Part shown: positions 7,791 through 45,966 of the stretch, piece after piece | Layout: every line of letters begins with the position of its first letter | Position numbering within the stretch: position 1 is the stretch's first letter | DNA from: a virus | Virus record (IMG/VR): IMGVR_UViG_3300010397_000057 | Location: 1-46,498 of that record | Reading direction: 5' to 3' (one strand) | Length of the DNA: 46,498 bases | The notes under the pieces: generated by a model | Told to the model about the DNA's origin: nothing | The model's database searches: none | Seen by the model: the letters and a program-made list of their open reading frames with translations, nothing else | Program-made: the position numbers and the translations under genes

Positions 7791-8080
7791 CTACGCCTCC
7801 TTCTTCAGCCGCTCGGCGGCACGCCGGGCTCGTTCCTTCTTGCGTTCCTGCGGTGTCATCCCGCCCCAGATACCGAGGAGCCCGGCGATCGGGACCGCGT
7901 AGTCCGCGCACTGCTTTTTGGCTTCGCAGCCGCGTGGCAGATCCGCTTCGCCCGGTCCCGCAGTTTCGCCCCTTCGTAGCCGGTCTCCTCGGGGAAGAAC
8001 TCGGCCGCGTCTTTGCCCTCACAGGCTCGTGGCGGCCACGACTCCAGCGGTGGCGCCCCGGCGTCCCGAATGGTCCTCAC
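7791..8080 (-). pseudogene. WhiB-like regulator with a broken frame
   Basis: The first part, from GTG 8080, contains ACEGKDAAEFFP and LRDRAKRICHA, carrying the first two Cys of a WhiB iron-sulfur cluster. The rest, in another frame, reads CEAKKQCADYA, then GLLGIWGGMTPQERKKERAR, with the last cluster Cys, the diagnostic GIWGG turn and the basic DNA-contact tail. The span is 290 bases. Removing two bases near 7929-7933 gives CHACEAKKQC, the canonical CX2CX5C. WhiB proteins are actinobacterial transcription factors also used by phages. Coupling at the 5' end is intact. It is either inactivated, recoded or mis-sequenced. Confidence 0.75.
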
Positions 8081-8295
8081 GCCGCCTCCCGGGCAGCTGC
8101 GAACGCCCGCCACCACGCCATGACCGGCAGCGGCAGGTTCGGGTCGACCATCGCCCCGAGGGTGCAGGTGAGCGCTTCCAGGTCGGTCCGGTCGAGGTGG
8201 CGGACGGTCCGGTGGGCGGCGGCGAGGTCCTCGCGCATGTCCATCGCGAACGTGATCGCCTGGGCGAGGAGCCGGTCCTCCTCTGCCGGGGTCAC
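8077..8295 (-). CDS. Hypothetical helical protein, 72 aa
   Basis: VTPAEEDRLLAQAITFAMDM begins at GTG 8295, overlapping the LexA-like gene stop. All-helical prediction. Conserved-looking elements are MREDLAAAHRTVRHLDRTD and a Trp pair near the end (VMAWWRAF). I have seen similar small proteins beside WhiB-like genes in actinophages, but no function is known. Confidence 0.6.
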   Translation of the reverse strand: MTPAEEDRLLAQAITFAMDMREDLAAAHRTVRHLDRTDLEALTCTLGAMVDPNLPLPVMAWWRAFAAAREAA

Positions 8296-8522
8296 CGCTG
8301 CACCACCCGCAGAGACCGGGCGATCGTCGTCTTCCACTGCAGCCGGCCGTCCCGCTCCAGCAGGACCAGGTGGTGGTAGGCGGCCGAGGGTGTTGCCAGG
8401 CCGACACCTCGCGCCACCTCGCGCACGGTCGGCGCGTATCCGTTCACCGTCCAGTAGTCGGTGATGAACTCGAGGATCGCGGCGCGCCGGCGGTCGCCAT
8501 TACGGGGTGTTGTCGCCTTCAT
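8292..8522 (-). CDS. LexA-type winged-helix DNA-binding protein
   Basis: 76 residues. Residues 12-70 match the LexA N-terminal domain: RRAAILEFITDYWTVNGYAP, TVREVARGVGLATPSAAYHH and LVLLERDGRLQWK (helix-turn-helix plus wing). There is no S24 protease domain, so it cannot self-cleave. It is a stand-alone DNA-binding module that could compete with host LexA or regulate early phage genes. ATG 8522 overlaps the stop of the SLOG gene. Confidence 0.75.
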   Translation of the reverse strand: MKATTPRNGDRRRAAILEFITDYWTVNGYAPTVREVARGVGLATPSAAYHHLVLLERDGRLQWKTTIARSLRVVQR

Positions 8523-8959
8523 CCGAGCACGTCCTCATCGGCGAGGTGGCGGGAGTCCATCGACGTCACCCCGGGCTCCCCGTACCGCCACACCCGCAGC
8601 GGGATGCCCTGCTCGGCTGCCAGCTCGGCGCAATGCGTCGCCCCGGCCGAGTCGTCGCGGATGAACGCCAGCGCCAAGTCGGCACCCTTGGCGACCATCT
8701 GCTCGTTGCGGACGATCCCGGCCCGCTTGCCGAACTTCTGCCACAGCGCCGGATGCCGCTCGGCGAGGATCAGCGTGGCGCCGCGGTACCAGCGGACCCA
8801 CTGATCGGCGAGCTCGTCGGCGCCGTTCGGGCAGGCGCCGTGAACGACCGCGACCATCGGGACGCCGGCCTCGATGGCCGCGTCGGCGACGGCTTGGAGG
8901 GCGAGCCGGGTCGTGGCCGCGTCGTCCCACGTGCGGCTGCCCGTCAAAATCACTCGCAT
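8519..8959 (-). CDS. SLOG / DUF2493-type nucleotide-binding protein
   Basis: 146 residues. MRVILTGSRTWDD at the N-terminus gives the Rossmann GSR motif. VVHGACPNGADELADQW (38-54) matches the 'HGga.GaD..a..wA' signature, and KFGKRAGIVRNEQMV (75-89) the 'GkkAGp.RN..M' motif of the YspA/cpYpsA-related SLOG family (DUF2493). Members are proposed to bind nucleotide-derived ligands and often occur in phages and conflict systems; no defined reaction is known. It overlaps the HNH gene by ten bases. Confidence 0.82.
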   Translation of the reverse strand: MRVILTGSRTWDDAATTRLALQAVADAAIEAGVPMVAVVHGACPNGADELADQWVRWYRGATLILAERHPALWQKFGKRAGIVRNEQMVAKGADLALAFIRDDSAGATHCAELAAEQGIPLRVWRYGEPGVTSMDSRHLADEDVLG

Positions 8960-13326: not shown

Positions 13327-13502
13327 TCGCCCACCACCCAGATGTCGACCAGTTCGGCTGCTACTTCCCCCACCAGGTCGTCCTGCTCGGCCGGCGTGAG
13401 CGCGTCCCACTCGGCCCGGGTCATGCCGGTGGAGATCTCACCCCGGAAGGTCACGTTCTTGCTGGACGAGTAGCTGAGCATCACTTCGTCGCTGTCGCTC
13501 AT
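13323..13502 (-). CDS. Hypothetical acidic protein, 59 aa
   Basis: MSDSDEVMLSYSSSKNVTFR followed by MTRAEWDALTPAEQDDLVGE and a hydrophobic end (AAELVDIWVVGE). The second half, 'MTraEWdalt..eqddLv.eva.elvdi.v', is a recognisable helix pair seen in several actinophage small proteins. The stop/start junction with the upstream gene overlaps by one base (TGATG). Confidence 0.6.
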   Translation of the reverse strand: MSDSDEVMLSYSSSKNVTFRGEISTGMTRAEWDALTPAEQDDLVGEVAAELVDIWVVGE

Positions 13503-13783
13503 CACCGCTCTCCTCGCAGGACGGCCCGCCCGTAGTCGGTGAGCCTGTAGTGAATGAGGTGCTGGGACTCGCCGGGCTCCAGCGGCTCGGTGTCGTACCG
13601 GACCCGGATCCACCCGGCGCGGAGCAGTTCTTCGAGGCGCTTGGTGACGCGCATGCCGCTGCGTCGGTCGAACGCGGCCTTGGCCGGCGGCTCGTAGTAG
13701 ATGCGGCCCTTGCCCTCGGAGACGGCGAGGGTGAGCGCTCGACGCGTCCGCGTCACCGGGAGGCCGTTGACGATCTGGGTCAC
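13502..13783 (-). CDS. Winged-helix DNA-binding protein
   Basis: 93 residues from GTG 13783 (GTGA). RVTKRLEELLRAGWIRVRYD (46-65) and LIHYRLTDYGRAVLRGE form the recognition helix and wing of a MarR/PadR-like fold ('kRl.eLl.aGwir....hYrLT..Gr'). A strand with RIYYEPPAK precedes it. Probably a transcription regulator of early or host genes. The longer reading back to 14236 passes through another gene and is rejected. Confidence 0.62.
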   Translation of the reverse strand: MTQIVNGLPVTRTRRALTLAVSEGKGRIYYEPPAKAAFDRRSGMRVTKRLEELLRAGWIRVRYDTEPLEPGESQHLIHYRLTDYGRAVLRGER

Positions 13784-14236
13784 GGCATCTCCTTGGCGGC
13801 GAGGTCGCGGCCCTCGTCCAGCAGGAACTGCTCGGGGGTGAACACGGCCGACTGGATAGCCCGCGCGGACGGGGCGTACGGCCCCTGGAGGAGTGCGCTG
13901 ACGCCCTCGCGGATCGCGTACAACTCGGCGTAGGCGGACACGAGCTGGGCCTTGTAGCTGTCGATGAGCGCGTTGGTGGTGAACGCCGTGTCGCGATGCA
14001 TCTGCGTGATGATCGCCCCGACGAGCGGGGCTGAACGGCTGGTCGCCGGACGGCTCCGGGTCGGCGGGCGGGATGCGTCCGAACGGCGCCCCGCAGCCGC
14101 ACGTCTCGCCGGGCTCGATGCTGGCGTCGCAGCCCGCCTCGCGGTGGATGTTGATGCTGTGACCGCATCCAGCCGCGCATTGGAAGCCCTTGGGCGCCGG
14201 GAGTTTGTACGCCTTGCTGGGGTCGAAGGCGCTCAC
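13780..14236 (-). pseudogene. Cys-rich protein with a +1 frame break
   Basis: Reads MSAFDPSKAYKLPAPKGFQC, then CGHSINIHREAGC and GETCGCGAPFG in one frame, followed by PLVGAIITQMHRDTAFTTNA, then helical sequence to FLLDEGRDLAAKEMP in the +1 frame. The span is 457 bases, one over a multiple of three. Dropping one C from the CCCC run near 14027-14030 joins both parts (about 151 residues) with GTGA coupling preserved at both ends. Without joining, the second part starts at ATG 14001 and the first part has no stop of its own. Function unknown; zinc-binding N-terminus, helical C-terminus. Confidence 0.6.
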
Positions 14237-14619
14237 CGGGCACCACCCTGCAGCAGCTCCTGCAGCTCGGCGTCAGCGTCGAACTCGACCCGCTCCGAGC
14301 CGAACGGCACGGCCCGGTCGGTCCGGCGGAGGAACGCGTCGAGGTCCCGACGCCGGACCCGCATGACGGCGGTGCCGTCGGGGCTGGTCAGGTTGATCTC
14401 CACGGCGTCGCGGTCGGCTTCGACGCGCACCTCGTGCAGGCCAGGCAGGCGGCGGGCCAGGACGTCCCGGCCCAGCACCCACCGCACCGGCGGGTGGCCC
14501 GGAGCGAGGACGGTCATGGACACGTCGAGCGGCTGCTCGGTGTTGTAGACGAACTCCAGATTGCCGGCGCCGCCGAGGATCTCGTCGGTGAAGGGCACGC
14601 ACCGGGTGATGTAGGCCAT
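14233..14619 (-). CDS. SsgA-like (SALP) sporulation/cell-division regulator
   Basis: 128 residues, near the usual SALP length. LEFVYNTEQPLDVSMTV (21-37) matches the 'lrYd..DPyaV...F' strand, VRWVLGRDVLARRL (45-58) the 'veWvfaRdLL..Gl' helix, VEINLTSPDGTAVMRV the 'v.i.LsSPeG.A.l.....' strands, and LDAFLRRTDRAVPFGSE (92-108) the 'l..FL.rTd..VP.G.E' signature. In the host, SsgA/SsgB control septum placement by recruiting FtsZ during sporulation. A phage copy could alter host septation or development. The start is ATG 14619. Confidence 0.82.
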   Translation of the reverse strand: MAYITRCVPFTDEILGGAGNLEFVYNTEQPLDVSMTVLAPGHPPVRWVLGRDVLARRLPGLHEVRVEADRDAVEINLTSPDGTAVMRVRRRDLDAFLRRTDRAVPFGSERVEFDADAELQELLQGGAR

Positions 14620-14621
14620 GG

Positions 14622-14963
14622 TCAGGACTCCAAAAGCGCGGCGGCAACAGGGCCGGTGACGTACAGCTGGTACTCGTCGGGCGTGAGCACGACCCGGAGG
14701 GCGGCGTCACCGATGAGGAGCGGGTCTTCGGGGCTCCACGGCTGCCTGGTCCAGTCCGGTCCGGTGACCATCAGCCGGCGGCGGTGGGAGAACGGGGTGT
14801 AGGTCTCGCCGCCCTCGGCGGCGGCCGCGAGGTGCTCAGCGAACGCGTCCAGAGCAGCGGCACGGGACCGGAGCGCCCGGGCGTAGGTGCCGCCGTTGTC
14901 GGTTTCGGCGATGAACCACATGGGCGGGTTGTCGACGCCCTTGGTGCGGTCGAGGAAGGTCAC
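14622..14963 (-). CDS. Hypothetical protein, 113 aa
   Basis: VTFLDRTKGVDNPPMWFIAE starts at GTG 14963 (GTGA). Two halves: a helix-rich one (YARALRSRAAALDAFAEHLA), then beta-like sequence with HRRRLMVTGPDWTRQPW and LRVVLTPDEYQLYVTGPV. It ends two bases before the SsgA-like gene, so the two are probably made together. No family recognised. Confidence 0.6.
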   Translation of the reverse strand: MTFLDRTKGVDNPPMWFIAETDNGGTYARALRSRAAALDAFAEHLAAAAEGGETYTPFSHRRRLMVTGPDWTRQPWSPEDPLLIGDAALRVVLTPDEYQLYVTGPVAAALLES

Positions 14964-15565
14964 GACGTCACCGCCGCGATGAGCGCCTCGGCCTTCACGA
15001 TCTCGGCCCGGGCGTCCGCGATGCGCTCGGCGGCGTACTTGCCGCTGCGCGCCGCGACATCCGGCTGCTCGTACAGGGCGATCGTCTCCCGCGACCGGGC
15101 GATCTCGCCGCGGGCGGCCTCTGCGACCGCCTCGGCTGTCGCCCACTCCTCGTCGAGGATCGGTGCGCCGCCGTAGTAGAGCAGCGACGAGACGTAGCCG
15201 TGGACGGTGTTGAGGTGCATGTCCGCACGGCGGTCGTAGAACGCCGCCTTGTAGAAGACGCCGACCCGCTCGCGGCCCCACTCGTCGACGATCGTCGTGT
15301 GCATCGCGTGGTCGGTGCTTTCGCGCCTCCAGCCCTTCGGGAGGGTGGCGGGCCGGAACAGCGGGTCGTGCTGGTGGGGCTCGCCGAACGTGAAGCCCAG
15401 GCGAAGGAACTCGGGGTCGTCGCTGCCCTTCGTCGGCAGGTCGCAGGACTCGAGCACCTGCCGCTGACCTGCGGCCTCCATGCCTTCGATGTAGCCGGAC
15501 GGTCCGTCGGACATGGCGCCGAGGAGGTGGAGCATCGGGTCACGGCCGCTGGTGTTCTCGATCAT
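14960..15565 (-). CDS. Hypothetical protein, 201 aa
   Basis: Starts at ATG 15565, about eight bases after AAGGAG, inside a repeated leader element. The N-terminal half has MLHLLGAMSDGPSGYIEGME and CDLPTKGSDDPEFLRLGF. The middle has DEWGRERVGVFYKAAFYDRR, a strand-turn-strand. The C-terminus is a long helix (AEAVAEAARGEIARSRETIA). Found in actinophage early regions without known role. It shares its leader structure with the next gene upstream. Confidence 0.65.
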   Translation of the reverse strand: MIENTSGRDPMLHLLGAMSDGPSGYIEGMEAAGQRQVLESCDLPTKGSDDPEFLRLGFTFGEPHQHDPLFRPATLPKGWRRESTDHAMHTTIVDEWGRERVGVFYKAAFYDRRADMHLNTVHGYVSSLLYYGGAPILDEEWATAEAVAEAARGEIARSRETIALYEQPDVAARSGKYAAERIADARAEIVKAEALIAAVTS

Positions 15566-15632
15566 TCGGTACGCTCCTTGTGTCGGCGCCTCACTGCTGT
15601 CTGTCCGGGCATGAGTGAGGCGCTGGTCTACG
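15566..15632 (-). promoter_or_regulatory. Leader hairpin element, copy 2
   Basis: A perfect 10-bp inverted repeat, GCGCCTCACT (15586-15595) and AGTGAGGCGC (15614-15623) with an 18-base loop, is followed on the minus strand by AAGGAGCGTACCGA and the ATG. The same plan and much of the same sequence occur before the gene at 16233. Probably a start-associated stem-loop affecting translation or RNA stability. Confidence 0.6.
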
Positions 15633-15639
15633 TCTGGGG

Positions 15640-16233
15640 TCAGAACGGCCCGTCGTCGGACTCGTCGTCTGACGGGTCCACGGCCTGGATGAAGTCCTTG
15701 TCGGTGGGCAGCGCGTGCAGCGGCCAGCTGGCAACGAGGGCCACCGGGTTGTAATCGTCGCGGCGGGAGTCGTCCACGTCCGACCGGTTGGCGAAGCGGC
15801 CCTTCGAGTGCCGGGCGTTCTGGAAGCCCTGGTAGACCTCGAAGGTCTCCGCGTCGAAGTCGACGACGTAGCCCCACTCCGCGAACAATGAGTCGGCCGG
15901 GAAGCCCGAGGCGTCCTCGATCACACCGGCATCGAGCATCGCGGCGGGATTGCCCTGCGTGTGCCGCAGGAGCACGTACCAGTCGTCAACCTGCTGCGTG
16001 CCGACGCCGAGGTGCGCGTAGCTGCGCAGGCGCTCGATGCCCTCCGGCGAGGGCTTGGAGTCCGCCTCAACCACGCGCAGCTCGGCCGCCTGACGGCGCG
16101 CCCCGCCCAGGTGGGCCTTGCGCAGCCACCCCAGCACGTCCGCGCCGAGACCGTCCGGGTACGAGTCGGAGTGGTTGTAGGCGATCTTCTCGGTGCCGTC
16201 GACAACGAAGCCGACGAATCCACGAGTGCTCAT
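15640..16233 (-). CDS. Conserved actinophage protein, 197 aa
   Basis: MSTRGFVGFVVDGTEKIAYN and HSDSYPDGLGADVLGWLR at the N-terminus are characteristic of an uncharacterised family frequent in actinophages ('RG.vGfv.dG.ekiaYNH.DSYP.gLG..vl'). The fold resembles an N-terminal-nucleophile-like beta sheet, but this is only impression. The middle has DWYVLLRHTQGN and WGYVVDFDAETFEVYQGFQ. Start ATG 16233 has GAGGAAG about nine bases upstream, better than the ATG at 16251. Confidence 0.72.
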   Translation of the reverse strand: MSTRGFVGFVVDGTEKIAYNHSDSYPDGLGADVLGWLRKAHLGGARRQAAELRVVEADSKPSPEGIERLRSYAHLGVGTQQVDDWYVLLRHTQGNPAAMLDAGVIEDASGFPADSLFAEWGYVVDFDAETFEVYQGFQNARHSKGRFANRSDVDDSRRDDYNPVALVASWPLHALPTDKDFIQAVDPSDDESDDGPF

Positions 16234-16300
16234 CTGTACGCTTCCTCTCATCGGGCGCTCTCGCTGCTGGCCTAGTCACCGCGCGAGAGCGTCTGTCGTT
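16234..16300 (-). promoter_or_regulatory. Leader hairpin element, copy 1
   Basis: Inverted repeat CGCTCTCGC (16256-16264) and GCGAGAGCG (16283-16291) with an 18-base loop, then GAGGAAGCGTACAG and ATG 16233 on the minus strand. It matches copy 2 in stem size, loop length and the CAGCAG[CT]GAG.GCGCC and AGGA.GCGTAC blocks. A similar arrangement (stem-loop plus ribosome site repeated before several genes) is known as start-associated sequences in cluster K mycobacteriophages. Confidence 0.6.
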
Positions 16301-16351: not shown

Positions 16352-16816
16352 CTACGGCTGCGCCTGCTTGCGCGCCTCGACGGCCTGCTCGACCGTGATG
16401 GCGTCGTCGGTCATGTAGAGCAGCAGTTCGGCGGCGAGCTTCCGGTCGGCGTCGAACGCGTCAGCGACGCGCTGGGCGTTCGCGGCGCGAAGCTGCAGCC
16501 AGGCGAGGACGTCGTCGCGGACCGCGTGCCGGGCCTTGACGCGGCGGCCGGCGCCGAGCCGCCACACCGCGTCCATCGCAACGGTTTCGCCGGTGAGCAG
16601 GTCGAGCTGCTGGTTGTCGATCCGGGCGGCCGCCTTGTCATCAGCCCGGGCGGCGAGGGTCTCCGCGAACTCCAGCAGCAGCTCGGCGTTCGTGGTCTCG
16701 TTTGAGAGCTCGGCCACGATCTCGGAGATGACCTCGTCCAGATCGAACTGCTCGCCGGTGTCGGCGATCCGCGCGTACGCCTCGGCGGCGATCTTCTGGT
16801 AGCGCGAGTGCTTCAC
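16352..16816 (-). CDS. Helical early protein, 154 aa
   Basis: VKHSRYQKIAAEAYARIADT from GTG 16816, coupled to the upstream HTH gene. Entirely helical, with EQFDLDEVISEIVAELSNET, LLLEFAETLAARADDKAAAR, then a basic RRVKARHAVRDDVLAWLQLR. It could be a partner of the adjacent HTH protein in DNA binding or replication control. No family recognised. The gene is followed by a leader element. Confidence 0.6.
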   Translation of the reverse strand: MKHSRYQKIAAEAYARIADTGEQFDLDEVISEIVAELSNETTNAELLLEFAETLAARADDKAAARIDNQQLDLLTGETVAMDAVWRLGAGRRVKARHAVRDDVLAWLQLRAANAQRVADAFDADRKLAAELLLYMTDDAITVEQAVEARKQAQP

Positions 16817-17766
16817 GGCAGTTCCTGTCCGGTTTCCTGGAGGTGGTCGGCGAGGGTGTAGATCGTGCGAGCCAGCTCGCGCAGGGACTCGGGCGTGAAG
16901 CACTTCGCGACACCGGGCATGTCGCCGACCTTGTAGGCGCCGGGCAGGTAGACCTGCTCCAGCCAGGCCTCGGGGCCGCGACGGCCGATACCGGTCGTGA
17001 GCGCGGCGATGCCCTCGCAGAACCGCTGCGACGACCGCTCACGCAGCTCTCGGTGAGTTTTGGCCTGCTCGTCCTCGGCGGGCTGGTGAGCGGCCGCAGG
17101 AGTGGACACCCCTGACTCCTCCTGCGGCCGCTCAGCGACCGGCGGGGAGCCATCGCGGGACTCCACCTGCTCGGCCGGTGCGCTGCCCGAGGTCACCCCT
17201 GGCCTCTCGGGCAGCGCGCGGGACGGGACCGGAGCGGGCCGGCCGCCGTCCTTGTTGGTGTGGTCTTCGGTGCGCTGGCCGGCGAGGTGCGCGTCGATGT
17301 CTTCCAGCGCGGCGTGCATGGCGTCGACGGGGTCGGCGTCAGCCGTTTCAAGATCGGTCCCGCGTGCATTTGCACCGGGGGTGGATCTTGCGACGGTCGA
17401 TCGATCCACGCCGACCATCGCCGCGATCTCACGCTGAGAGCGCTGCTGCGCCTTCGGGAGCGCCTTCTGCTCCTCGACGACCTTCTCGATGACGGTCTTG
17501 GCGATCTCGCGGGTGGGGCGCATGCCGAGGCTCGCGCCGAGCGGCGCAACCCGCGCGTCCCACCAGTCGGCGAAGGTTGGGAAGCCGAGCTGGGTCCAGG
17601 CCTGGTTCGTCAGGATCCAGTCGAAGTCATCCTTCGCCTGGGCCATGCTGCGCAGGAAGCTCGCCTCGTGCCGGCGGGCCTGGGCGGCCGGGTCCTGAGC
17701 CGCGAGGCGCTCGGCCGCCGCGGCGCGCAGCACGGCGCCGGAGTAGGTGCTCTTCGGCTTGCTCAC
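16813..17766 (-). CDS. HTH protein, possible ParB-like or replication regulator
   Basis: 317 residues. Residues about 60-125 hold WDARVAPLGASLGMRPTREI and KAQQRSQREIAAMVGVDRST, a helix-turn-helix of the type found in ParB-related and phage regulatory proteins ('SqReIA..vGV..sTV.R'). The middle (130-240) is disordered, rich in Pro/Glu/Ala. The C-terminal 75 residues (RFCEGIAALTTGIGRRGPEA, PESLRELARTIYTLADHL) are helical. It is the second gene of the leftward transcript after the repressor, a place for an early activator or initiator. No ParB nuclease-like motif seen. Confidence 0.6.
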   Translation of the reverse strand: MSKPKSTYSGAVLRAAAAERLAAQDPAAQARRHEASFLRSMAQAKDDFDWILTNQAWTQLGFPTFADWWDARVAPLGASLGMRPTREIAKTVIEKVVEEQKALPKAQQRSQREIAAMVGVDRSTVARSTPGANARGTDLETADADPVDAMHAALEDIDAHLAGQRTEDHTNKDGGRPAPVPSRALPERPGVTSGSAPAEQVESRDGSPPVAERPQEESGVSTPAAAHQPAEDEQAKTHRELRERSSQRFCEGIAALTTGIGRRGPEAWLEQVYLPGAYKVGDMPGVAKCFTPESLRELARTIYTLADHLQETGQELP

Positions 17767-18089: not shown

Positions 18090-18479
18090 ATGACGACGCC
18101 GACCCGCGAGACGACAGCCCTGAACAAGGCTGTCGCGGCGCAGATCAGGTCACTGCTTGGAATCCGGATGATGCGGCAGGCGCAGCTGGCGGCCCGGATG
18201 GGAGTAACGGAGGTCTGGCTATCTCGCAGATTGCGGGAGGTCCAGGCGATGTCTCTGGATGACGTTGAACGTATCGCTCAAGCCCTGGAGGTTGCACCAG
18301 CCGAACTGATCGCCTCAGCCGTCAGGGGTGCCTGGCAACCTACGCTCCCAAGGGTCGCGCAGGCCGTTCGTCCCCCGGACCGCCGACCAAAGGACAAGCC
18401 CGGATCCGATCGCGCAGGGCACCGTACGCGGCGGAAACGCACCCTCACACCCGAAGAGATGTCACTGATTGCAGTGTGA
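18090..18479 (+). CDS. XRE-type Cro-like or second repressor
   Basis: 129 residues. HTH domain residues 15-75: AAQIRSLLGIRMMRQAQLAA, then MGVTEVWLSRRLREVQAMSL and DVERIAQALEVAPAELIA. It resembles its divergent neighbour in length and spacing of helices, and both have W-L in the recognition helix. The C-terminal 45 residues are basic and disordered (RPPDRRPKDKPGSDRAGHR). Located ten bases before int, likely in one transcript, so this regulator would be made with integrase. Confidence 0.75.
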   Translation: MTTPTRETTALNKAVAAQIRSLLGIRMMRQAQLAARMGVTEVWLSRRLREVQAMSLDDVERIAQALEVAPAELIASAVRGAWQPTLPRVAQAVRPPDRRPKDKPGSDRAGHRTRRKRTLTPEEMSLIAV

Positions 18480-18489
18480 GGATCACCCC

Positions 18490-19317
18490 ATGAATGATTT
18501 GATCGCGCTGCACGTCGCGCATCTCCGGTCGGCGGGCATGTCCCCCCGTACCGTCCAGGCGGCCGGGGAGGTACTCGGCCGATTGCACGACGCGCTCGCC
18601 GCCGGCGTTGAGTCGACCTCCCGTGCCGAGTTGGAGCACTACTTCGGCAACGAGAAGTGGTCGGCCGCGACCCGCGAGTGCTACTTCAACCACGCTCTGC
18701 GCTTCTACCGCTGGGCCACCGATGAGGACGTCGATCTCCTCGACCACAACCCGATGACCCGCATGAAGCGCCCCATAGCCCGCAAGGGCGAGCCGAGACC
18801 GCTCACTGACGAGCAGGTCACGGCCATCCTGACGAAGGCGGTCGACCCGTTCCGGCTGTGCGCGATTATCGCCCTGCACAGCGGCCTGCGGTGCATCGAG
18901 CTCGCCGGGCTGCACAAAGCGGACATCGGGCCTGAGCAGATCTACATCCGCCGCGCGAAGGGAGGCCAGTCCGCGACGGTCCCGTCGCACCCGGAGCTTG
19001 TCGAGCTGGTCCGTGACTTCCCTGACGGACCAGTAGTCGCCGCGGCCGGCGGCCGAGCCGACGCCCGGTGGATCTCGATCCGGTCCGCGGTCTACTTCTC
19101 CAGGTCACTGGGAATGCCGGGGGTGAGCCTGCACCGCTGTCGGCACACATTCGCGACCAGGCTGCGCGACCAGGGCGCCGACGCGTTCGTGATCAAGAAG
19201 GCGATGCGGCACTCCAGCCTCACCAGCACCGAGATCTACGTGGGCGCGTCGGACCAGGAGTGTCGCCAGGCCGTACGGGGCCTGGCGACACTCGTTGTCA
19301 CCCCGGTCGCCTGCTAA
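18490..19317 (+). CDS. int: Tyrosine integrase
   Basis: 275 residues, start ATG 18490 with GAGG eight bases upstream. N-terminal SAM-like core-binding domain residues 1-90. The catalytic domain shows R134 in ALHSGLRCIELAGL, K157 in RRAKGG, H215-x-x-R218 in SLHRCRHTFATR, H241 in AMRHSS and the nucleophile Y250 in STEIYVG. All catalytic residues are present. It lacks a long arm-binding domain, making it a short integrase. It would insert the phage at a host attB and excise it. Transcribed with the Cro-like gene; the terminator follows 22 bases later. Confidence 0.9.
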   Translation: MNDLIALHVAHLRSAGMSPRTVQAAGEVLGRLHDALAAGVESTSRAELEHYFGNEKWSAATRECYFNHALRFYRWATDEDVDLLDHNPMTRMKRPIARKGEPRPLTDEQVTAILTKAVDPFRLCAIIALHSGLRCIELAGLHKADIGPEQIYIRRAKGGQSATVPSHPELVELVRDFPDGPVVAAAGGRADARWISIRSAVYFSRSLGMPGVSLHRCRHTFATRLRDQGADAFVIKKAMRHSSLTSTEIYVGASDQECRQAVRGLATLVVTPVAC

Positions 19318-21725: not shown

Positions 21726-21974
21726 TCAGCAGGTGGCGAGGGTGAGCCGGGCGGGGACATGCGTTGTCGCGGCAGCCCGTTCGACCTGGAGCTCGGAGAC
21801 GGATGCCGGCTTTTCGCCCTCGGCAAGGTAGAAGCCGATCGCCTCAGCGAGCGCTTCCTGGAGTTCCTTCATGTTCCGGCCGGCCGCGAAGCAGCCGGGT
21901 AGGTCGTTGACCTCGGCCCAAATCTGATCGTCTTCGAAATGGACCGTCAGGTGCAGCACCCGTACGTCGGACAT
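21726..21974 (-). CDS. hicB: HicB-type antitoxin
   Basis: 82 residues. VRVLHLTVHFEDDQIWAEVN then DLPGCFAAGRNMKELQEALA and EAIGFYLAEGE match the HicB partial RNase-H fold ('...y.a.v.dLPGc.t.G.t..Ea..n..eAi..yl'). HicB binds and neutralises HicA and represses the operon. No separate DNA-binding domain is evident in the short tail. Start ATG 21974 with GGGAGGGGAA upstream; it lies 25 bases after hicA. Confidence 0.82.
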   Translation of the reverse strand: MSDVRVLHLTVHFEDDQIWAEVNDLPGCFAAGRNMKELQEALAEAIGFYLAEGEKPASVSELQVERAAATTHVPARLTLATC

Positions 21975-21999
21975 GTGACTTCCCCTCCCTCTCGCGCGC

Positions 22000-22224
22000 C
22001 TACTTCAAACCGGCCTGGGTCAAGATCCTGCTGGTCAGGCCGACAGCGTACTGTTCGCCGTTGCAGCTGGGGAGCGTGATGGGCCGGCATCCCTCCTTCT
22101 CCATCTTCACCACATGCTTGCCGCCGAGCGTGCGTTTCCACCCGTTTGCTTCAAGCAGCGCTTGCGCTTCGCGCTGGTTCATCGTTCTGGGTAGCTGCTG
22201 GCGCTTCTTGAACCACCGTGGCAC
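22000..22224 (-). CDS. hicA: HicA-type mRNA interferase toxin
   Basis: 74 residues from GTG 22224, supported by GGAGG five bases upstream. QREAQALLEANGWKRTLGGK then H37-VVKMEKEGCRPITLP: the double-stranded RNA-binding-like fold with the catalytic histidine in 'GGKH' (usually 'GGSH'). HicA cleaves mRNA and arrests growth. The toxin-first order is the usual one. In a temperate phage it could stabilise the prophage or exclude other phages. The N-terminal ten residues are basic. Confidence 0.82.
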   Translation of the reverse strand: MPRWFKKRQQLPRTMNQREAQALLEANGWKRTLGGKHVVKMEKEGCRPITLPSCNGEQYAVGLTSRILTQAGLK

Positions 22225-22295
22225 GTCGACCTCCGTCCCGTCCATAGGCGGAAGGCCCGAGCGAATCACAGTCCGTGTTCTGACGGCAACTCCAC

Positions 22296-22314
22296 TAACG
22301 ACTGTGAGTCGTAA
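22296..22314. promoter_or_regulatory. Inverted repeat upstream of hicAB
   Basis: TAACGACT (22296-22303), spacer GTG, AGTCGTAA (22307-22314): an 8-bp inverted repeat with one mismatch, about 70 bases before hicA. A likely operator for autoregulation. Another short repeat, GTCCG-AG-CGGAC, lies at 22344-22355. Confidence 0.5.
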
Positions 22315-22363
22315 CGGCGCACTTGTCCGAATTCGCGTCACCCGTCCGAGCGGACAAAACGAA

Positions 22364-37027: not shown

Positions 37028-37489
37028 CTAGTTGCCGTACTTCGCGCGGAGGTCGCTCTGGGACAGACCGCCCTCTTCGACGGCCTTCGTCTCGTCCTCC
37101 GAGGCGCCCTGCGACGCGGCGTAGGCCGCCCAGTCGGCGCGGGACGCGTTGCCGCGCGGCTTCCCGCCCGCCTGCGCGGCGTCGACAGCGGCCTGGGCCC
37201 GGTCGACGCGTTCGGCGATCGTCGCCGCCGCGGCCGGCTGCTCGGTCACCGGCACGTTCGGCGGCTCACCCGGGACCGGGGTCCCGGCCGGCACGGCGAC
37301 GTGCTCGCCGGCGAAGCTGTCGGCCTCGACGAGGTAGCCCTTGCGGACCAGCCGCTCGACGTCCTCGGGGTTGGCGTTCGGCGGGACGGGCGCACCGGCG
37401 TAGTAGCCGAGCAGCACGTCACCGCCGGAGACGGGGTCTGCGACGCGGAACGTGACGTACGCGGCGAGGACCTTGTATTCCGTCGTCAC
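37028..37489 (-). CDS. Hypothetical virion-region protein, 153 aa
   Basis: VTTEYKVLAAYVTFRVADPV starts at GTG 37489, overlapping the capsid stop (GTGA). The first 60 residues look like a small beta barrel with LGYYAGAPVPPNANPEDVER. A Pro/Val linker and a coiled segment (AERVDRAQAAVDAAQAGGKP) follow. The end, SRADWAAYAASQGASEDETK and LSQSDLRAKYGN, resembles the small helical domain ('..dWv.yA...G.....a....k.dLi..yG') found in many phage head proteins after the capsid gene. Confidence 0.68.
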   Translation of the reverse strand: MTTEYKVLAAYVTFRVADPVSGGDVLLGYYAGAPVPPNANPEDVERLVRKGYLVEADSFAGEHVAVPAGTPVPGEPPNVPVTEQPAAAATIAERVDRAQAAVDAAQAGGKPRGNASRADWAAYAASQGASEDETKAVEEGGLSQSDLRAKYGN

Positions 37490-38409
37490 GACGTCACCCC
37501 CGTGATCTCCTGGCCCGCGCCGGTCTCCTGCACGACGGGGACCGTCTTGCGGCGGCCCTGGAGATCCCAGGCGTCGATGTCGTCCTTGCGGATGCTCTTG
37601 ACCTGCACGGCGAGGTCGGCGATCGAATAACCGGGCGCGCCGTCCATCTCGTCGGCCATGCCGCCCAGGGCCTTCGAGTCCAGGACGAAGCACGACGTGG
37701 CCACCGGCAGGTTCGGCGTGACGATCACCTTCAGGCCTGCGACCTGCTCGACCTCGCCGGTGTAGACCGGGTTGTCGGTCGTCTCCCGGCGCCACAGGTT
37801 CGAGATGACCGTGTCGACCATCATCGACATGTAGCCGAGGTCCGACACGACGAGCGTGTCCGGGTCGTAGCCGAGGTTGCGGGCGCGGATGATCCGCTTG
37901 GCGTTGAGAATGTCGTTGAGGATCTTCGGCGAGCCCGCGTCCCACTTGCCGAGCGTCGCCGTGTCGGCGAGCGCCGAGCCGATCGCCGACATGGTGATCG
38001 AGTCGACCTGCGAGATGATCGAGTTGATCACCTTCTGCATGGCCCGGTCGACGGCCGCCTGGCCGTACACGTTGCGGGCGATCTCCTCGTCGGTGATCCG
38101 GACCTTCTGGCCCCACTTCGCGACCGCCGCGAGGGCGGCGGTGCCGGTCGGCATGTTCGCGAACGGGTACTCAGACCCGGCCGAAACCGACTCGACGGTG
38201 CGGTCGGTGACGAAGGGCTCGGTCTGCTCGTACAGCACGGCACCGCCGCTGGAGCGGAACCGCTGCGTGAGCAGCTGGTCGGAGACGAACCGCAGGTCCT
38301 TGAAGTCGCGCAGGCGTCGCTTGATCGACTCCGGCGAGTTGAGGAACCGGCTGATGGCCAGGGAATCTCCCGTGAGGACGGGAGCCCCGGCCGGGTAGGT
38401 GCCAGGCAT
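37486..38409 (-). CDS. Major capsid protein
   Basis: 307 residues. DSLAISRFLNSPESIKRRLR, FVSDQLLTQRFRSSGGAVLY, EPFVTDRTVESVSAGSEYPF, then AKWGQKVRITDEEIARN, LVVSDLGYMSMMVDTVISNL and VEQVAGLKVIVTPNLPVATS. This order matches the HK97-fold capsid proteins of actinophages: N-arm, E-loop region with 'vaeg.EyPf', long spine helix, P and A domains. 'dwG....itdEe' is characteristic. A protease precedes it, as does the decoration gene. Confidence 0.88.
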   Translation of the reverse strand: MPGTYPAGAPVLTGDSLAISRFLNSPESIKRRLRDFKDLRFVSDQLLTQRFRSSGGAVLYEQTEPFVTDRTVESVSAGSEYPFANMPTGTAALAAVAKWGQKVRITDEEIARNVYGQAAVDRAMQKVINSIISQVDSITMSAIGSALADTATLGKWDAGSPKILNDILNAKRIIRARNLGYDPDTLVVSDLGYMSMMVDTVISNLWRRETTDNPVYTGEVEQVAGLKVIVTPNLPVATSCFVLDSKALGGMADEMDGAPGYSIADLAVQVKSIRKDDIDAWDLQGRRKTVPVVQETGAGQEITGVTS

Positions 38410-40484: not shown

Positions 40485-40664
40485 TCAGTCGATGGCCGCC
40501 CGGCTGCGGATCGCCGCGTAGGCGTCAGCGGCCGGGCCGGTCAGGTCGTCAGCGGTGTCAACGCCCGGCTGCTGGGCGCCCTCGATGAGTGCTTGCCGTT
40601 CGTCGAGGCTGGCTTTGCCGACCCGCATGAGCAGCGCGATGCGCTGCATCGCCTCGGGCGTCAT
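40485..40664 (-). CDS. Hypothetical protein, 59 aa
   Basis: MTPEAMQRIALLMRVGKASL followed by DERQALIEGAQQPGVDTADD and a helical end (AADAYAAIRSRAAID). Helical throughout. ATG 40664 overlaps the portal-fusion stop (ATGA), so it is coupled to it. By analogy it could chaperone or neutralise the C-terminal enzymatic domain of the fusion; nothing in its sequence proves this. Confidence 0.6.
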   Translation of the reverse strand: MTPEAMQRIALLMRVGKASLDERQALIEGAQQPGVDTADDLTGPAADAYAAIRSRAAID

Positions 40665-43600
40665 CCGGCCTCCATCGTGATCGCGCCCCGGTTGAGCACG
40701 ATGTACTGGCGGGCCTTGCTCTGCCGTTTCCGGCCGCCCTCGTGGATGGTGTAGCCGTCGTCCATGTTGTCGACCTGGATGACGTCGTAGCCGCGCATCG
40801 TCGCGTACCGGCCGTTGTCGTAGACCCAGTCCTCGACGTCCGGTGGGAGCCGGTCCCGGTTCGCTTTCAGCCACTGCTTCCGCTCGGCTTCGAGTTTCCG
40901 CATCGTGATCGTCTTCGCGCCTGGCCGCAGCGCAACCCGGACCGTGGCACCGTCGCCGAAGCTCTCGGCGTCCGGGTCGGCGGTGTCCGACCGGCTGCTG
41001 CGGCCGAACCGGTCCGCGACCCGCTTGTCGACGGAGAAGTAGATCCCGTTGCCGTAGTAGCCGTTGCCGTAGGCGAAGTCCGGGTCGTCGCGCATCGCCG
41101 CGATCTGCGCCTCCGCGGAAATCCCGGACTCGTGGGACCGGACACCACGGAACAGTTCGACCCCGCCGCCCTTGACGGCGTCGTCGACGGAGCCGACTTC
41201 GGGCAGGCCGTAGCCCTGGTCCCGGGTCAGCTGGGTGAGGATGCCGTCCCGGGGGTCGTCGAGGCCGTAGGCGACCTGGAGCCGTCCGTGCCGGGGGTCT
41301 CCGCCGTTGACGTCGCGGATGATGTCGTCGACGATGTCCCGGCCGGCGGCGAGCCGGCCGCGAGCCGACCGGCCGGGTTCCGCGACCGCTGGCGGAGCCG
41401 CCTTGCGCGGCGTCCGCTTCCGGGCCGTCGGAGCCGTGTTGAACCCGAGTTTGTCCCGGAGCAGTTCGGCCGTCTTGCGGTCGTCCGGCTCGGCGGTTTC
41501 GGCCATCGACCGCAGCTCGCGGCCGATCTCCTCCCGCTCGGCGGCGGTGAGCTGCCTGAGGTCGCTCTTCTCCAGGCCACTCAGGGCGGAGAGGACGTCG
41601 AAGTCCTCGTAGCCTTCCTTGCCCAGCACGTCGCGGACCTTGGCGAGCCGCTCCGCCCGGGCGGGCTTGGCGCTCGGCGTCCGCTTCCGGGGCGCCGCCG
41701 GAGCTGGTGCCGGGGTGGCCGCCTTGCCGCCGAGGTCGTCGATGAGCTTCTTGGCGATCGAGTCGCGGCTTTCGCCGCGGGTCAGTGTGATACCGGGCCG
41801 CTTCGAGGCCGCTCGGCGCAGTTGCTCCCGGTCGAAGTCCGCGAACGGGTCGCCCTTGCCGCCGCCGGCGCGGTGGGTCTCGATCGCCGACTTCAGCTTG
41901 TCCACTGTGGAGCGGAACTTCCCGCCAGCACCGCGCGGGTGCTTCTCGTCGAAGTCGGGACCTGCGGCCGCCCGGACCTCGCCGTGCAACTCTGCGAGCG
42001 CCAGGATCAGCGCCTCGATCAGCTCTTCCCGCTCGGCGGCCTCGTCGTCGACATCTGCGGAGGCGTGGACGTTGCGGTGGTCGCCGGGCCAGTAGCCCCA
42101 GCGCAGGTGGAACCAGGCCGCCGCGGTCCGCTTGGCCATGCCCTCGGCAAGGTACTTCCGCAGGTGGCCGAGCAACTCGGTGAAGGTCTTCCACTTCGCC
42201 GCGCCCTCGCCGTACACCCAGTAATGCTTGAGCTCCTCACCACCCGGGTGCGTGTCGACCCCGGCAGCCGCGGACACCGTCTCCGGCGGCTGCGGGCCCC
42301 GCAGCTCACCCTCGATCCGGGCCAGCTCCTTCAGCAGGCGCCGCGCGCCCTTCGGGTCGTACCTGACGCCGTCGCTGTCCGGGTTGGTCCGCACCTCGAG
42401 GTTCCACGACGCGGGGTCATCGTCGGTGAGGAAGATGCCCCAGGTCAGGTCTGCGGTGTCCCCGCCGCCGATCGCTTCACCACTCGCCACCGGCTCGGAA
42501 CCGAGGAGCTTCGGGTCGGTCGGCGCCTGGCCGGAGTTCCACGCCTTGTCCGCGTCACGCGCAGCCTGCTTCGCCTGCTCGACACCCGACTCCAGACGTG
42601 TCCGGAGCTTCGTGACGGTGTCGGTGTCGAGGATCGCCGTGTCGCTGCCGTCCTCCCAGTCGCCCTTCCAGTCGTTGGACTCGTCGGCCGGGGTGACGCC
42701 GAGCCGGACCTCCGGCCCGTACTCCTTGGAGAAGACCACCACCCAGTTCAGGTCGGCGAGCTCGTCCTCGTCCGAGAGGCGGTCGCTCGACCCGAGCCGG
42801 TCACCAGGGTCGAGGGGTACGACGTCGTCGATGCCGAGCCCGTCGGTGAAGTCCGGGAGGCCGGGCCCGGGGATGCCGTCGCCCCACTCGCCGTTCGGGT
42901 CCCGCTTCTGGGCAGGGTTGTACTTCGCGGTCACGCCGCGCCGCGGCCGCCGGCGAGCCGGCCGTGCCGCGGCCACGGACTCCGCGCCCATCGGCGTCGC
43001 CTCAGGCGGCGTCGGCGCGGTCTGCCCGGGCGGCGGGGTCGCCGTCGCCGGGTCCGCCGGCGGGAGACCGTACTGCTGCCGGGACGTCTCCTCGAGGACC
43101 TGGTCCGGGTGGATGATCCCGGCGTCGACGAGGGTCTTCAGCGCCTGCGCTGTCGCCGCCTGCTGGGAGCCGATCTCGTCGAAGACCAGCCTGGGTGCGG
43201 GTTCGTCCTCACCGAAGTTCAGGTCGACGAGGTCTTCGATGACGTGCTGCGTCGTGACGTCCGCGATCTGCATCGCGAGCGTCTGGAGGCTGTAGACGAA
43301 GAAGTCCGCGAAGGTGGAGCCGAGCGCCCACGAGCCGGTCTGCGTGCCGAGGTTCAGGAAGTGCGCGAGGGCGGCCCGGGCGATCTGCTCGTCGTGGTAG
43401 CGGATCGCCGGGTCAGCGTCGGGCAGGGTGCCCTCGACGCCGCGGAGGACGAGGTCGGCGCCGAACGGCACCGCGGAGCCCGCGGCCTCGCCGGCACGCC
43501 ACAGGGTGGCCATCGACTTCCCGGCCGCCATGTCCCCCGGGCTCGCGCCCTCCTGGGCCTTGTACAGCGGGATACCCATCCCGTTGCGTTCGATCGTCTG

Positions 43601-44350
43601 CGCCTGGACACGGAGCAGCCGGTCTTTGAGCAGCCAGTTCTTGTACGCGGGGCGGAGGATCGACTGGCCGAGCCAGTTCCCGCCCTCGCGGTTACGGACG
43701 TAGGCGACGAGCCGGTCGACGGGGATGCGCTGCGGGGAGCCGTTCTCCGACGTCCACCGCTGCTTGATCCACTCCAGGCCGCCGTCAGCAGCAACCTTGA
43801 TCTCGTCGATCGTCGACGGCATCCGCGGCGCCAGCTTCTTCAGGTGCGCCTCAGTGCCCGCGTCGTTCACGCTGTACACCTGCTCGAAGAACATGTGCCC
43901 GAACGGCAGCGACAGCAGCGCGAGCCGCAGGTGGTCCGGCCAGGAGAACTTCCCCTTCGTCCGGACCGGCGCCTTCCCCGGGCCCTTCCCGACGATCGGG
44001 AGACCCATGTCGGTGGCGACGAACTTGACCACGGTGGCGCGGGCGCCGTTGGGGTCGATGCGCCACGGCGTCCGCCGGATCGGCAACGACACCGCTTCGA
44101 GCAGCGAGGTTACCTGCGCGTCGGTGCGGCGCATCTGGTCGTAGACGGCGACCGACCGGGGCCACTGCAGTTCCGGGGTGGTCTCGCCCTCGTCGAACAG
44201 CCACCACTGGCTGAGGGTCGCCTGGGCGTAGCCGATCTCCCCGCGGGACGCCACCTGCGGCTTCGTCGCCGCAGCCTCGACCCGCTGCGGCATCCCGGGC
44301 AACTCGATCTGCATCTGCGTCGACACGGCCGCCCGCCCTTCGGTGCTCAC
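40661..44350 (-). CDS. Portal protein fused to a long extension ending in an ADP-ribosyltransferase-like domain
   Basis: 1229 residues, over twice a normal portal. Residues 40-430 are a DUF935/Mu gp29-type portal (YAQATLSQWWLFDEG, RRTDAQVTSLLEAVSLPIRR, QSILRPAYKNWLLKDRLLRV). KYNPAQKRDPNGEWGDG (475-491) opens the extension; 520-690 contains two related acidic modules (LADLNWVVVF, TADLTWGIF). DEKHPRGAGGKF lies at 801-812, helical segments at 830-1010. Residues 1030-1229 have VELFRGVRS (1064-1072), YGNGYYGNGIYFS (1094-1106) and RQYIVLNRGAI (1214-1224), the pattern of ADP-ribosyltransferase folds. It could be delivered with the DNA. Start GTG 44350; no strong ribosome site. Confidence 0.72.
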   Translation of the reverse strand: MSTEGRAAVSTQMQIELPGMPQRVEAAATKPQVASRGEIGYAQATLSQWWLFDEGETTPELQWPRSVAVYDQMRRTDAQVTSLLEAVSLPIRRTPWRIDPNGARATVVKFVATDMGLPIVGKGPGKAPVRTKGKFSWPDHLRLALLSLPFGHMFFEQVYSVNDAGTEAHLKKLAPRMPSTIDEIKVAADGGLEWIKQRWTSENGSPQRIPVDRLVAYVRNREGGNWLGQSILRPAYKNWLLKDRLLRVQAQTIERNGMGIPLYKAQEGASPGDMAAGKSMATLWRAGEAAGSAVPFGADLVLRGVEGTLPDADPAIRYHDEQIARAALAHFLNLGTQTGSWALGSTFADFFVYSLQTLAMQIADVTTQHVIEDLVDLNFGEDEPAPRLVFDEIGSQQAATAQALKTLVDAGIIHPDQVLEETSRQQYGLPPADPATATPPPGQTAPTPPEATPMGAESVAAARPARRRPRRGVTAKYNPAQKRDPNGEWGDGIPGPGLPDFTDGLGIDDVVPLDPGDRLGSSDRLSDEDELADLNWVVVFSKEYGPEVRLGVTPADESNDWKGDWEDGSDTAILDTDTVTKLRTRLESGVEQAKQAARDADKAWNSGQAPTDPKLLGSEPVASGEAIGGGDTADLTWGIFLTDDDPASWNLEVRTNPDSDGVRYDPKGARRLLKELARIEGELRGPQPPETVSAAAGVDTHPGGEELKHYWVYGEGAAKWKTFTELLGHLRKYLAEGMAKRTAAAWFHLRWGYWPGDHRNVHASADVDDEAAEREELIEALILALAELHGEVRAAAGPDFDEKHPRGAGGKFRSTVDKLKSAIETHRAGGGKGDPFADFDREQLRRAASKRPGITLTRGESRDSIAKKLIDDLGGKAATPAPAPAAPRKRTPSAKPARAERLAKVRDVLGKEGYEDFDVLSALSGLEKSDLRQLTAAEREEIGRELRSMAETAEPDDRKTAELLRDKLGFNTAPTARKRTPRKAAPPAVAEPGRSARGRLAAGRDIVDDIIRDVNGGDPRHGRLQVAYGLDDPRDGILTQLTRDQGYGLPEVGSVDDAVKGGGVELFRGVRSHESGISAEAQIAAMRDDPDFAYGNGYYGNGIYFSVDKRVADRFGRSSRSDTADPDAESFGDGATVRVALRPGAKTITMRKLEAERKQWLKANRDRLPPDVEDWVYDNGRYATMRGYDVIQVDNMDDGYTIHEGGRKRQSKARQYIVLNRGAITMEAG

Positions 44351-44361
44351 ACTGGAGGCGG

Positions 44362-45966
44362 TCAGAACCCGATCGTGAACAGGTCACCTTCGGAGCGTCC
44401 CGTTGATGGGACGTGGTCGACCATGGGCGGCGGGTCAGGCGGCCGGACCGGCTCGCCGGCCAGGAAGGCCGCCCGGTCCACGGCCATCACCGCGGCGACC
44501 GCGAGGTCGATGCGGCGCTGACTGTGCTTGTGCTCCTTGTAGATCCGGGTCCCGCGGGAGTCGGCCTTCAGCACCGCGTTGTCGAGGTGCCGGGCCAGGC
44601 GCAGGTCGCCGGAGTGCGTCAGGGTGCCGTTCATGACGGCCTCGTAGAACCGGGTCGTGGCTGGCGTCATGCGGGCCGGTGACTGCGGGAACTCGACCAC
44701 GGGGAGGCCCTCGGCCTCCAAGATTTGGTATGTCCGCGCCCAGCGGAACGGGTCGCAGGCGAGCTCGCGGACCTGCCAGCGGCGGCACGCGGCACGGATC
44801 GAGTCCTCGACGTCGGCGATCGGCACCCGCCAGTCGCCGCTGTCGTCGAGGGGTTTCTCCCACAGCTCGACCACGTCGACGTGCAGCGGGTTCGCCACCG
44901 ACACGACGACCAGTGCGGTGCAGTCGCCGTTGAACGACCCGTCGAAGCCGAGCACCACGTCGGTGCCGGGTTCGATCGGCTCGCCGCCCTCGCAGTCGTC
45001 CCAGGCGCCGGCCGGCAGCCACGCCGAGGACGTGTTCACCCACTGGTTGCAGCGTTTCGTCCGGAACTCGTTCTCCGGCGTCTTGACCACCGCGGAGGCG
45101 AGGTCCTCGACCGAGACGAGGTCGCCGATGCCGGGGTTCGCCTCGCGCCAGGTTGCCGGGTCGCGGTGGTCGGCGTCGGCCTTGCGCGGCTCCCACCAGG
45201 CCATGAAGAACGTCGGGTCGACGAGCTCGCCCCGGGCGATCCGCACACCCAGCTGGTACAGGCCGTAGCACAGCGACTCGGCGCCGCTCGCGTCGAACTT
45301 CACGCCGGCGGTGGTGATCCCGACCATGAGCGGCTCGACCCGGGCGCCCTGCGCGAGGGCCATGACGTCCCACAACTCGCGGTTCGGCTGGGCGTGGACC
45401 TCATCGAACAGCACCAGGTGCGGGTTGAGGCCCTCTTTGGTGAACGCTTCCGCGCTCAACGCTTTGTAGATGCTGCCGGTGTCCGGGTATTCGATGACGT
45501 CGCGGTAGACCTTGAGGATCGACGACAGTTCCGGGTCCATCTTGACCATCTGCCGGGCCGTGTTGAACACGACCTTGGCCTGGTCCTTGTCGGCCGCGCA
45601 GGAGTACACCTCGCCGCCCTGCGGACCCAGCACGAGACCGCCGAGGCCGAGCGTCGACCCGACACCGGACTTGCCGTTCTTCCGTGCCACGCCGAGCAGC
45701 GCCTGACGGTGCCGATACCGGCCGTCGGCGCGGCGGGCCAGGGTGTGCGAGACGAGATTGCGCTGCCACGGCCGGAACCGGATCAGCTGGCCGGCCGGGG
45801 CGGCGAGGGAGTCCTTGTCGACGCGGCAGACGGCCTCGCCGAAGTCGGTGAACAGCGGCCCGTCGCCGCGGGCGACGTCCTCGGCCGGGACCGGCGTGAG
45901 CCAGCGCGGCGGCCAGGAGTCATGCGTTGTGGCGGCGCTCGAGGAGCTTGTCGAGGGCGGAGACAC
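44362..45966 (-). CDS. terL: Terminase large subunit
   Basis: 534 residues. RFRPWQRNLVSHTLARRADG precedes the ATPase: Walker A GVARKNGKSG (92-101) and Walker B LVLFDEVH (184-191, D188/E189). The nuclease domain starts at VVLGFDGSFNGD (338-348, D342), with the last acidic motif near DLAVAAVMAVD. A phage lambdoid/HK97-type motor that cuts and pumps DNA into the head. GTG 45966 has GGAGG six bases upstream; it overlaps terS by 47 bases. Confidence 0.92.
   Translation of the reverse strand: MSPPSTSSSSAATTHDSWPPRWLTPVPAEDVARGDGPLFTDFGEAVCRVDKDSLAAPAGQLIRFRPWQRNLVSHTLARRADGRYRHRQALLGVARKNGKSGVGSTLGLGGLVLGPQGGEVYSCAADKDQAKVVFNTARQMVKMDPELSSILKVYRDVIEYPDTGSIYKALSAEAFTKEGLNPHLVLFDEVHAQPNRELWDVMALAQGARVEPLMVGITTAGVKFDASGAESLCYGLYQLGVRIARGELVDPTFFMAWWEPRKADADHRDPATWREANPGIGDLVSVEDLASAVVKTPENEFRTKRCNQWVNTSSAWLPAGAWDDCEGGEPIEPGTDVVLGFDGSFNGDCTALVVVSVANPLHVDVVELWEKPLDDSGDWRVPIADVEDSIRAACRRWQVRELACDPFRWARTYQILEAEGLPVVEFPQSPARMTPATTRFYEAVMNGTLTHSGDLRLARHLDNAVLKADSRGTRIYKEHKHSQRRIDLAVAAVMAVDRAAFLAGEPVRPPDPPPMVDHVPSTGRSEGDLFTIGF

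Follow-up and report, generated by a model that had tools for sequence, protein, structure and literature searches.

Why would a phage carry a gene for an SsgA-like protein (SALP)? In Streptomyces, SsgB together with SsgA brings FtsZ to septum sites. The SALP family has been described as exclusive to filamentous actinomycetes, where its members serve FtsZ recruitment and spore development. A first-pass annotation placed a SALP gene at positions 14233-14619 of a 46,498-base IMG/VR virus record, here called the window. These coordinates are correct; the annotation gave no strand, and the gene lies on the minus strand, with its ATG at 14619 and its stop ending at 14233 (Table 1). Below we ask whether the gene product is a SALP, what carries it, how it compares with other SALPs, and what it may do for the phage.

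The window encodes a genuine SALP

When searched against Pfam-A, the window protein has a single significant match, PF04686 SsgA (E=3e-17, 62.8 bits against a cut-off of 25), which covers protein residues 22-109 and model positions 4-98 of 98. The score and coverage of this match exclude a chance resemblance, and the family assignment made in the first-pass annotation is upheld; the SsgA-family signature that it claimed, FLRRTDRAVPFGSE, is indeed found in the protein. A sequence search of the PDB returned 6SLC (E=2.8e-13) and 3CM1 (T. fusca SsgB, E=1.9e-6) and no other matches; 6SLC is S. coelicolor SsgB (PMC8061694), despite the misleading label 'SsgA' given to the molecule in the PDB entry. 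A PHROGs search with the same protein gave nothing significant. SALPs are typically ~130-145 residues long and 30-50% mutually identical (PMC3814722); the window protein, with 128 residues, is marginally short, and its identity to cellular SALPs is ~29-46%.

The gene itself shows the signs of a working reading frame: a GGAG Shine-Dalgarno-like sequence stands 5' of the ATG, the stop overlaps the start of the next gene, and the GC content by codon position (0.78/0.46/0.93) is of the coding type in a genome of 70% GC. Sequence comparison thus confirms a genuine SALP encoded by an intact-looking gene. The protein is a new member of the family; phage SALPs as such were already known, since the ssgA gene of phage Dagobah was reported in 2020 (PMC7650747; cited in PMC10117723). 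The statement that SALPs are confined to morphologically complex actinomycetes, repeated in the first-pass annotation, fits the cellular family, which has been so described (PMC3814722), but it does not extend to phages: the Dagobah SALP is published (PMC7650747), and many more phages have one. These cases limit the old distribution rule, not the membership of the family.

Relationship to cellular SALPs

In a cellular sample of about 690 genomes, the best-scoring match to the window protein is a Streptomyces-type SALP (46% identity, 60.7 bits). SsgD, the best NCBIfam match (equivalog NF052496), was rejected at 44.5 bits against a cut-off of 185, and so was orthology with SsgB, which would call for near identity to the SsgB of one host genus: Streptomyces SsgB, the other nearest cellular sequence, is 43% identical to the window protein, with no supported grouping. 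A maximum-likelihood tree built from 43 SALPs puts the window protein on a long branch with no supported neighbors; none of the three homes considered at first pass (SsgA, SsgB or a phage clade) receives support. A single clade of phage SALPs was not recovered in this tree, nor was it rejected (AU p=0.371). On these comparisons, neither SsgA nor SsgB nor SsgD is orthologous to the window protein.

We aligned the window protein with 42 other SALPs and numbered residues as in S. coelicolor SsgB. Equivalents of W51, R55, V115, P116, G118, E120, D125, D127 and L130 are kept, and these include the residues of the alpha2-alpha3 lock of SsgB (R55, V115, G118 and E120). In SsgB, the kept residues hold helix alpha3 or belong to the C-terminal stretch itself; SsgB altered at 115, 118 or 120 gives tilted septa and binds SsgA less well, and its E120G form still binds FtsZ (PMC8061694). 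Differences from SsgB are found at Y35 (Leu in the window protein), L57 (Val), L96 (Val) and L97 (Met); the SsgB changes Y35H and L57P abolish sporulation (PMC8061694). The G69-D70 site is His-Glu, in a shortened loop, whereas Asp is present in 42/42 and Gly in 41/42 of the other aligned SALPs, a Gly-Asp motif that is an empirical SALP trait and not a formal family criterion. Because this motif is lost and positions 35 and 57 hold Leu and Val, an SsgB-like assembly may be impaired.

The SsgB fold has seven strands and three helices. A two-sequence AlphaFold model of the window protein, of low confidence (pLDDT 57), has a similar order of strands and helices, and a Foldseek search with this low-confidence model returned SsgB entries at all of ranks 1-8, though with weak scores (E of about 0.01-0.1, TM of about 0.3).

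Carrier phage and host

The window encodes a terminase large subunit, a major head protein, a Mu-type portal, a tape measure, tail proteins, a tyrosine integrase and Cro/C1-type regulators, and on account of these genes we read it as a temperate tailed phage. The SALP gene is therefore phage-borne, as the first-pass annotation had it. The 1,229-residue protein at 40661-44350 (minus strand) has a Mu-type portal start and a C-terminal FRGVRS ... GNGIYFS stretch resembling an ADP-ribosyltransferase domain by eye; its Pfam matches are to portal only. A HicB-like and HicA-like pair, both slightly below the Pfam cut-off, lies at 21726-22341 (minus strand), and at 8292-8959 (minus strand) a YspA/SLOG-family protein adjoins a protein with a LexA-type DNA-binding domain. 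No tRNA that would mark an attachment site was found in the window, and a promoter scan of the window was uninformative.

The window terminase is closest to those of Pontimonas phage phiPsal1 and phiC31/TG1-type Streptomyces phages. Among cellular genomes, a capsid relative (66% identity) was found in Micromonospora tarensis alone, and the conserved early gene at 15640-16251 has a relative (49%) in 1 of 300 genomes of the Micromonosporaceae. A single SALP was seen in each of these two genomes, and Micromonospora has been reported to have a single SALP (PMC3814722). Judged from these distant relatives, the host is probably a sporulating actinomycete of the Micromonosporaceae.

Two developmental regulators, the SALP and a WhiB-like protein, had been counted on this phage at first pass. 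A WhiB-like gene does exist, with WhiB positions 32-63 at 7839-7934 (E=1.2e-6, record search), but positions 6-33 lie just upstream in a different frame (E=0.05), which weakens the point. The split reflects either a broken phage gene or an assembly error, which leaves the count of two functional developmental regulators insecure. The two families are linked on a Pseudonocardia plasmid, where a SALP is fused to a WhiB-like protein (PMC3814722).

Table 1. Features of the window and SALP genes of Loccivirinae phages
Feature	Position	Strand	Basis
SALP, 128 aa, PF04686	14233..14619	-	Pfam-A, PDB sequence search, residue alignment
Small gene directly upstream of SALP in operon, no family matched	14622..14963	-	family search
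Early gene (start estimated); 47% relative near SALP of prophage G044	14960..15571	-	comparison with G044
Conserved early gene, common to G039-G044	15640..16251	-	comparison with G039-G044
Two early genes, common to G039 (16352-16903; 16813-17766, the latter with weak HTH matches)	16352..17766	-	comparison, profiles
Small genes downstream of SALP (~13998-14236, 13780-14001, 13502-13793)	13502..14236	-	ORFs
WhiB-like gene, split over two frames	7794..8080	-	WhiB profile
Cro/C1-type HTH regulator, likely repressor	18090..18479	+	profile
Tyrosine integrase	18469..19317	+	profile
Major head protein	37486..38409	-	profile
Portal protein (Mu type), long C-terminal extension	40661..44350	-	Pfam portal matches
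Terminase large subunit	44362..45966	-	profile, sequence comparison
Loccivirinae SALP genes	L003:2929-3300, L004:2929-3318, L005:2956-3333, L006:3001-3381, L192:2501-2887, L193:2501-2875		

The SALP gene occupies a variable slot in the early operon

The SALP gene belongs to an operon in which adjacent genes abut or overlap. The idea that it belongs to the core genome of such phages was rejected, since no SALP occurs in 38 records whose capsids are related to that of the window (identity of up to 90%; many of the records are fragments); as these capsid relatives do without it, the SALP appears dispensable. Between the window and five compared capsid relatives, similar DNA is found almost exclusively in the structural module.

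The early region has other relatives, and the nearest of them differs in the content of the slot. The record G039 matches the window in the genes at 16813, 16352, 15640, 12949 and 12483 and in their order, but the small genes in the stretch after its 15640 relative are different ones, with no SALP among them; the window gene at ~13502-13793 resembles, by eye, a G039 gene at the other edge of this slot. In G044 (71 kb, UViG_2930556935_000001), relatives of the 15640 gene (55%), of the SALP (38%) and of the 14960 gene (47%) occur within 5 kb, with the SALP between the other two, and in G042 and G043 a SALP lies ~8 kb from the 15640 relative. The layout of G039 compared with those of G044, G042 and G043 leads us to describe the SALP as exchangeable early-operon cargo that recurs in a related gene neighborhood.

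Two neighbors in these records are worth recording. A G044 protein (L115:4120-5010) with a signal-like N-terminus and no Pfam or NCBIfam match adjoins the 15640 relative, and a TROVE-domain (Ro60-like) protein (L118:10-903) lies directly upstream of the G042 SALP. Scans of IMG/VR and GTDB contigs with the window SALP alone found no close relatives, and neither did IMG/VR scans with the Dagobah SALP and a small SALP alignment; diverse phage SALPs, once aligned, varied too much to serve as a scan query.

SALPs in other phages

With the Dagobah protein and then the Sham protein as query, SALPs turned up in large Streptomyces phages, in 38 records from 29 phages; their annotation there is 'hypothetical protein' or is missing. 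Four representative proteins pass the Pfam SsgA cut-off, as do Wakanda, BillNye and Faust in record searches. All the records checked for taxonomy but one, which has no family, belong to the Loccivirinae (Stanwilliamsviridae), known as lytic phages. A close Lsr2-like protein (at least 48% identity) was found in these 38 SALP records and in no others, so that the SALP is universal in this Loccivirinae-type set; its gene lies ~1-1.5 kb upstream of the Lsr2-like gene. No SALP was found in Karimac or Coruscant, both of which belong to the sister subfamily Boydwoodruffvirinae. In the 43-SALP tree the Loccivirinae proteins form one clade (support 99/96), and their dN/dS is 0.04-0.31 over eleven pairs: these SALPs are under purifying selection. 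A human-faeces 'Bacteriophage sp.' record with a SALP (MT838510, L007, UNVERIFIED) was set aside, as its genes look like a fragment of a bacterial chromosome.

A literature search that covered few subscription papers found no paper naming the Loccivirinae genes as SALPs, and no experiment on any phage SALP. New here, then, are the SALPs in the 38 records (29 phages) of Loccivirinae-type phages and in three further IMG/VR phages, one of them in the same gene neighborhood as in the window. The lineages concerned (Loccivirinae, Dagobah, the window phage and G042-G044) might have taken up a SALP independently or anciently, and might use it as a selected tool for controlling host FtsZ in vegetative hyphae, with an effect on phage production and not on sporulation; we regard this wider reading as rather doubtful.

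Proposed role

What could the SALP do for the window phage? The reading that we tentatively prefer is that this exchangeable cargo acts with or against host SsgB to shift FtsZ rings and septa to the benefit of the phage. In its favor are the Pfam and SsgB matches, the kept lock residues, the operon and variable slot, and the purifying selection on the Loccivirinae SALPs. The SALP would be produced in the early phase of infection or in lysogens. Having the alpha3 lock of SsgB but altered loops, it could insert itself into SsgB trimers or act as a competitor for SsgA, SsgB or FtsZ; recruitment of FtsZ, and the placement or formation of septa, would then be altered. The simplest benefit would be a hypha held undivided and phage-productive, a direction of effect that is a guess. 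Streptomyces development contains infections and limits phage spread (PMC10117723), and phage-encoded sporulation-like sigma factors reduce spore yield in Bacillus (PMC9429907), a case that by analogy would support the undivided hypha. Counting against this reading are the lost Gly-Asp motif, the Leu and Val at positions 35 and 57, the lack of a SALP in the capsid relatives, and the action of several SALPs not on septum siting but on the spore wall, the separation of spores or the condensation of DNA (PMC8061694). A block of sporulation, interference with septation and entrapment in spores, the last two put forward in the first-pass annotation, are likewise guesses, as the sequence gives no direction of effect.

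The SALP might instead promote septation, mycelial fragmentation or the remodelling of the wall where cells divide, and so aid phage release or the carriage of prophage into spores, which would include entrapment. Raised SsgA expression affects mycelial fragmentation and SsgA activates cell division (PMC3814722), some phages speed up Streptomyces sporulation (PMC10276819), and the window phage is temperate, with an integrase. We nevertheless consider this unlikely: the Loccivirinae conserve the SALP yet need no prophage carriage into spores, and early sporulation may be a defence of the host (PMC10276819).

It is quite improbable that the gene is neutral cargo, a host SALP acquired by chance and drifting unused in the variable slot. 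Drift would suit its accessory location and its absence from the 38 capsid-relative records, the lost Gly-Asp motif and long branch, and the frame-split WhiB-like gene elsewhere in the early region; but the frame is intact, with coding-type codon positions, a ribosome-binding site and operon overlap, the alpha2-alpha3 and C-terminal residues are kept despite at least 54% divergence, and SALPs recur in unrelated phages. Less probable still is a phage-internal job for the SALP fold, unrelated to septation, such as nucleic-acid binding, which to our knowledge has been demonstrated for no SALP. It would be in keeping with the likeness of the SsgB fold to the guide-RNA/ssDNA-binding MRP1/MRP2 and PBF-2 (PMC3814722), with the Lsr2-like DNA-bridging genes near the Loccivirinae SALP gene and with the TROVE/Ro-like neighbor of the G042 SALP, but SALP neighbors vary between phage groups.

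If phage SALPs do alter division, as in the reading that we prefer, tampering with the division of host cells may be routine among phages. Conservation of a SALP across a group of isolated, culturable Streptomyces phages makes the steering of development or division by phages directly testable in ordinary laboratory strains.

Comparison with known systems

The closest known protein of determined structure is SsgB (6SLC, 3CM1), with which the window protein shares the same domain, 43% identity over ~100 residues, and the residues of the alpha2-alpha3 lock and the C-terminal helix; it differs from SsgB in the shortened loop of the GDVRVWP motif, the loss of Gly-Asp, L57V and Y35L, and in being phage-borne. 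The Streptomyces-type SALP G601:C9 is of the same family (46%) and resembles SsgA by eye, but the window protein is not its orthologue and has no supported grouping with it in the tree. The SsgA-family gene of Dagobah (MT711977, HUN42_00031) likewise encodes a phage SALP, ~35% identical to the window protein, but in another phage with other neighbors, with a longer C-terminus and with Gly-Asp kept. The Loccivirinae SALPs (Stanwilliamsviridae; for example Sham gp205 and Comrade gp209) are also phage-encoded and lie above the Pfam SsgA cut-off, whereas they form a separate supported clade, belong to ~130-kb Streptomyces phages, lie near Lsr2-like genes and are 21-30% identical to the window protein. 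The G044 SALP keeps Gly-Asp and stands in a partly different gene order, yet it is 38% identical to the window SALP over 116 residues and has relatives of the window genes 15640 and 14960 on its two sides.
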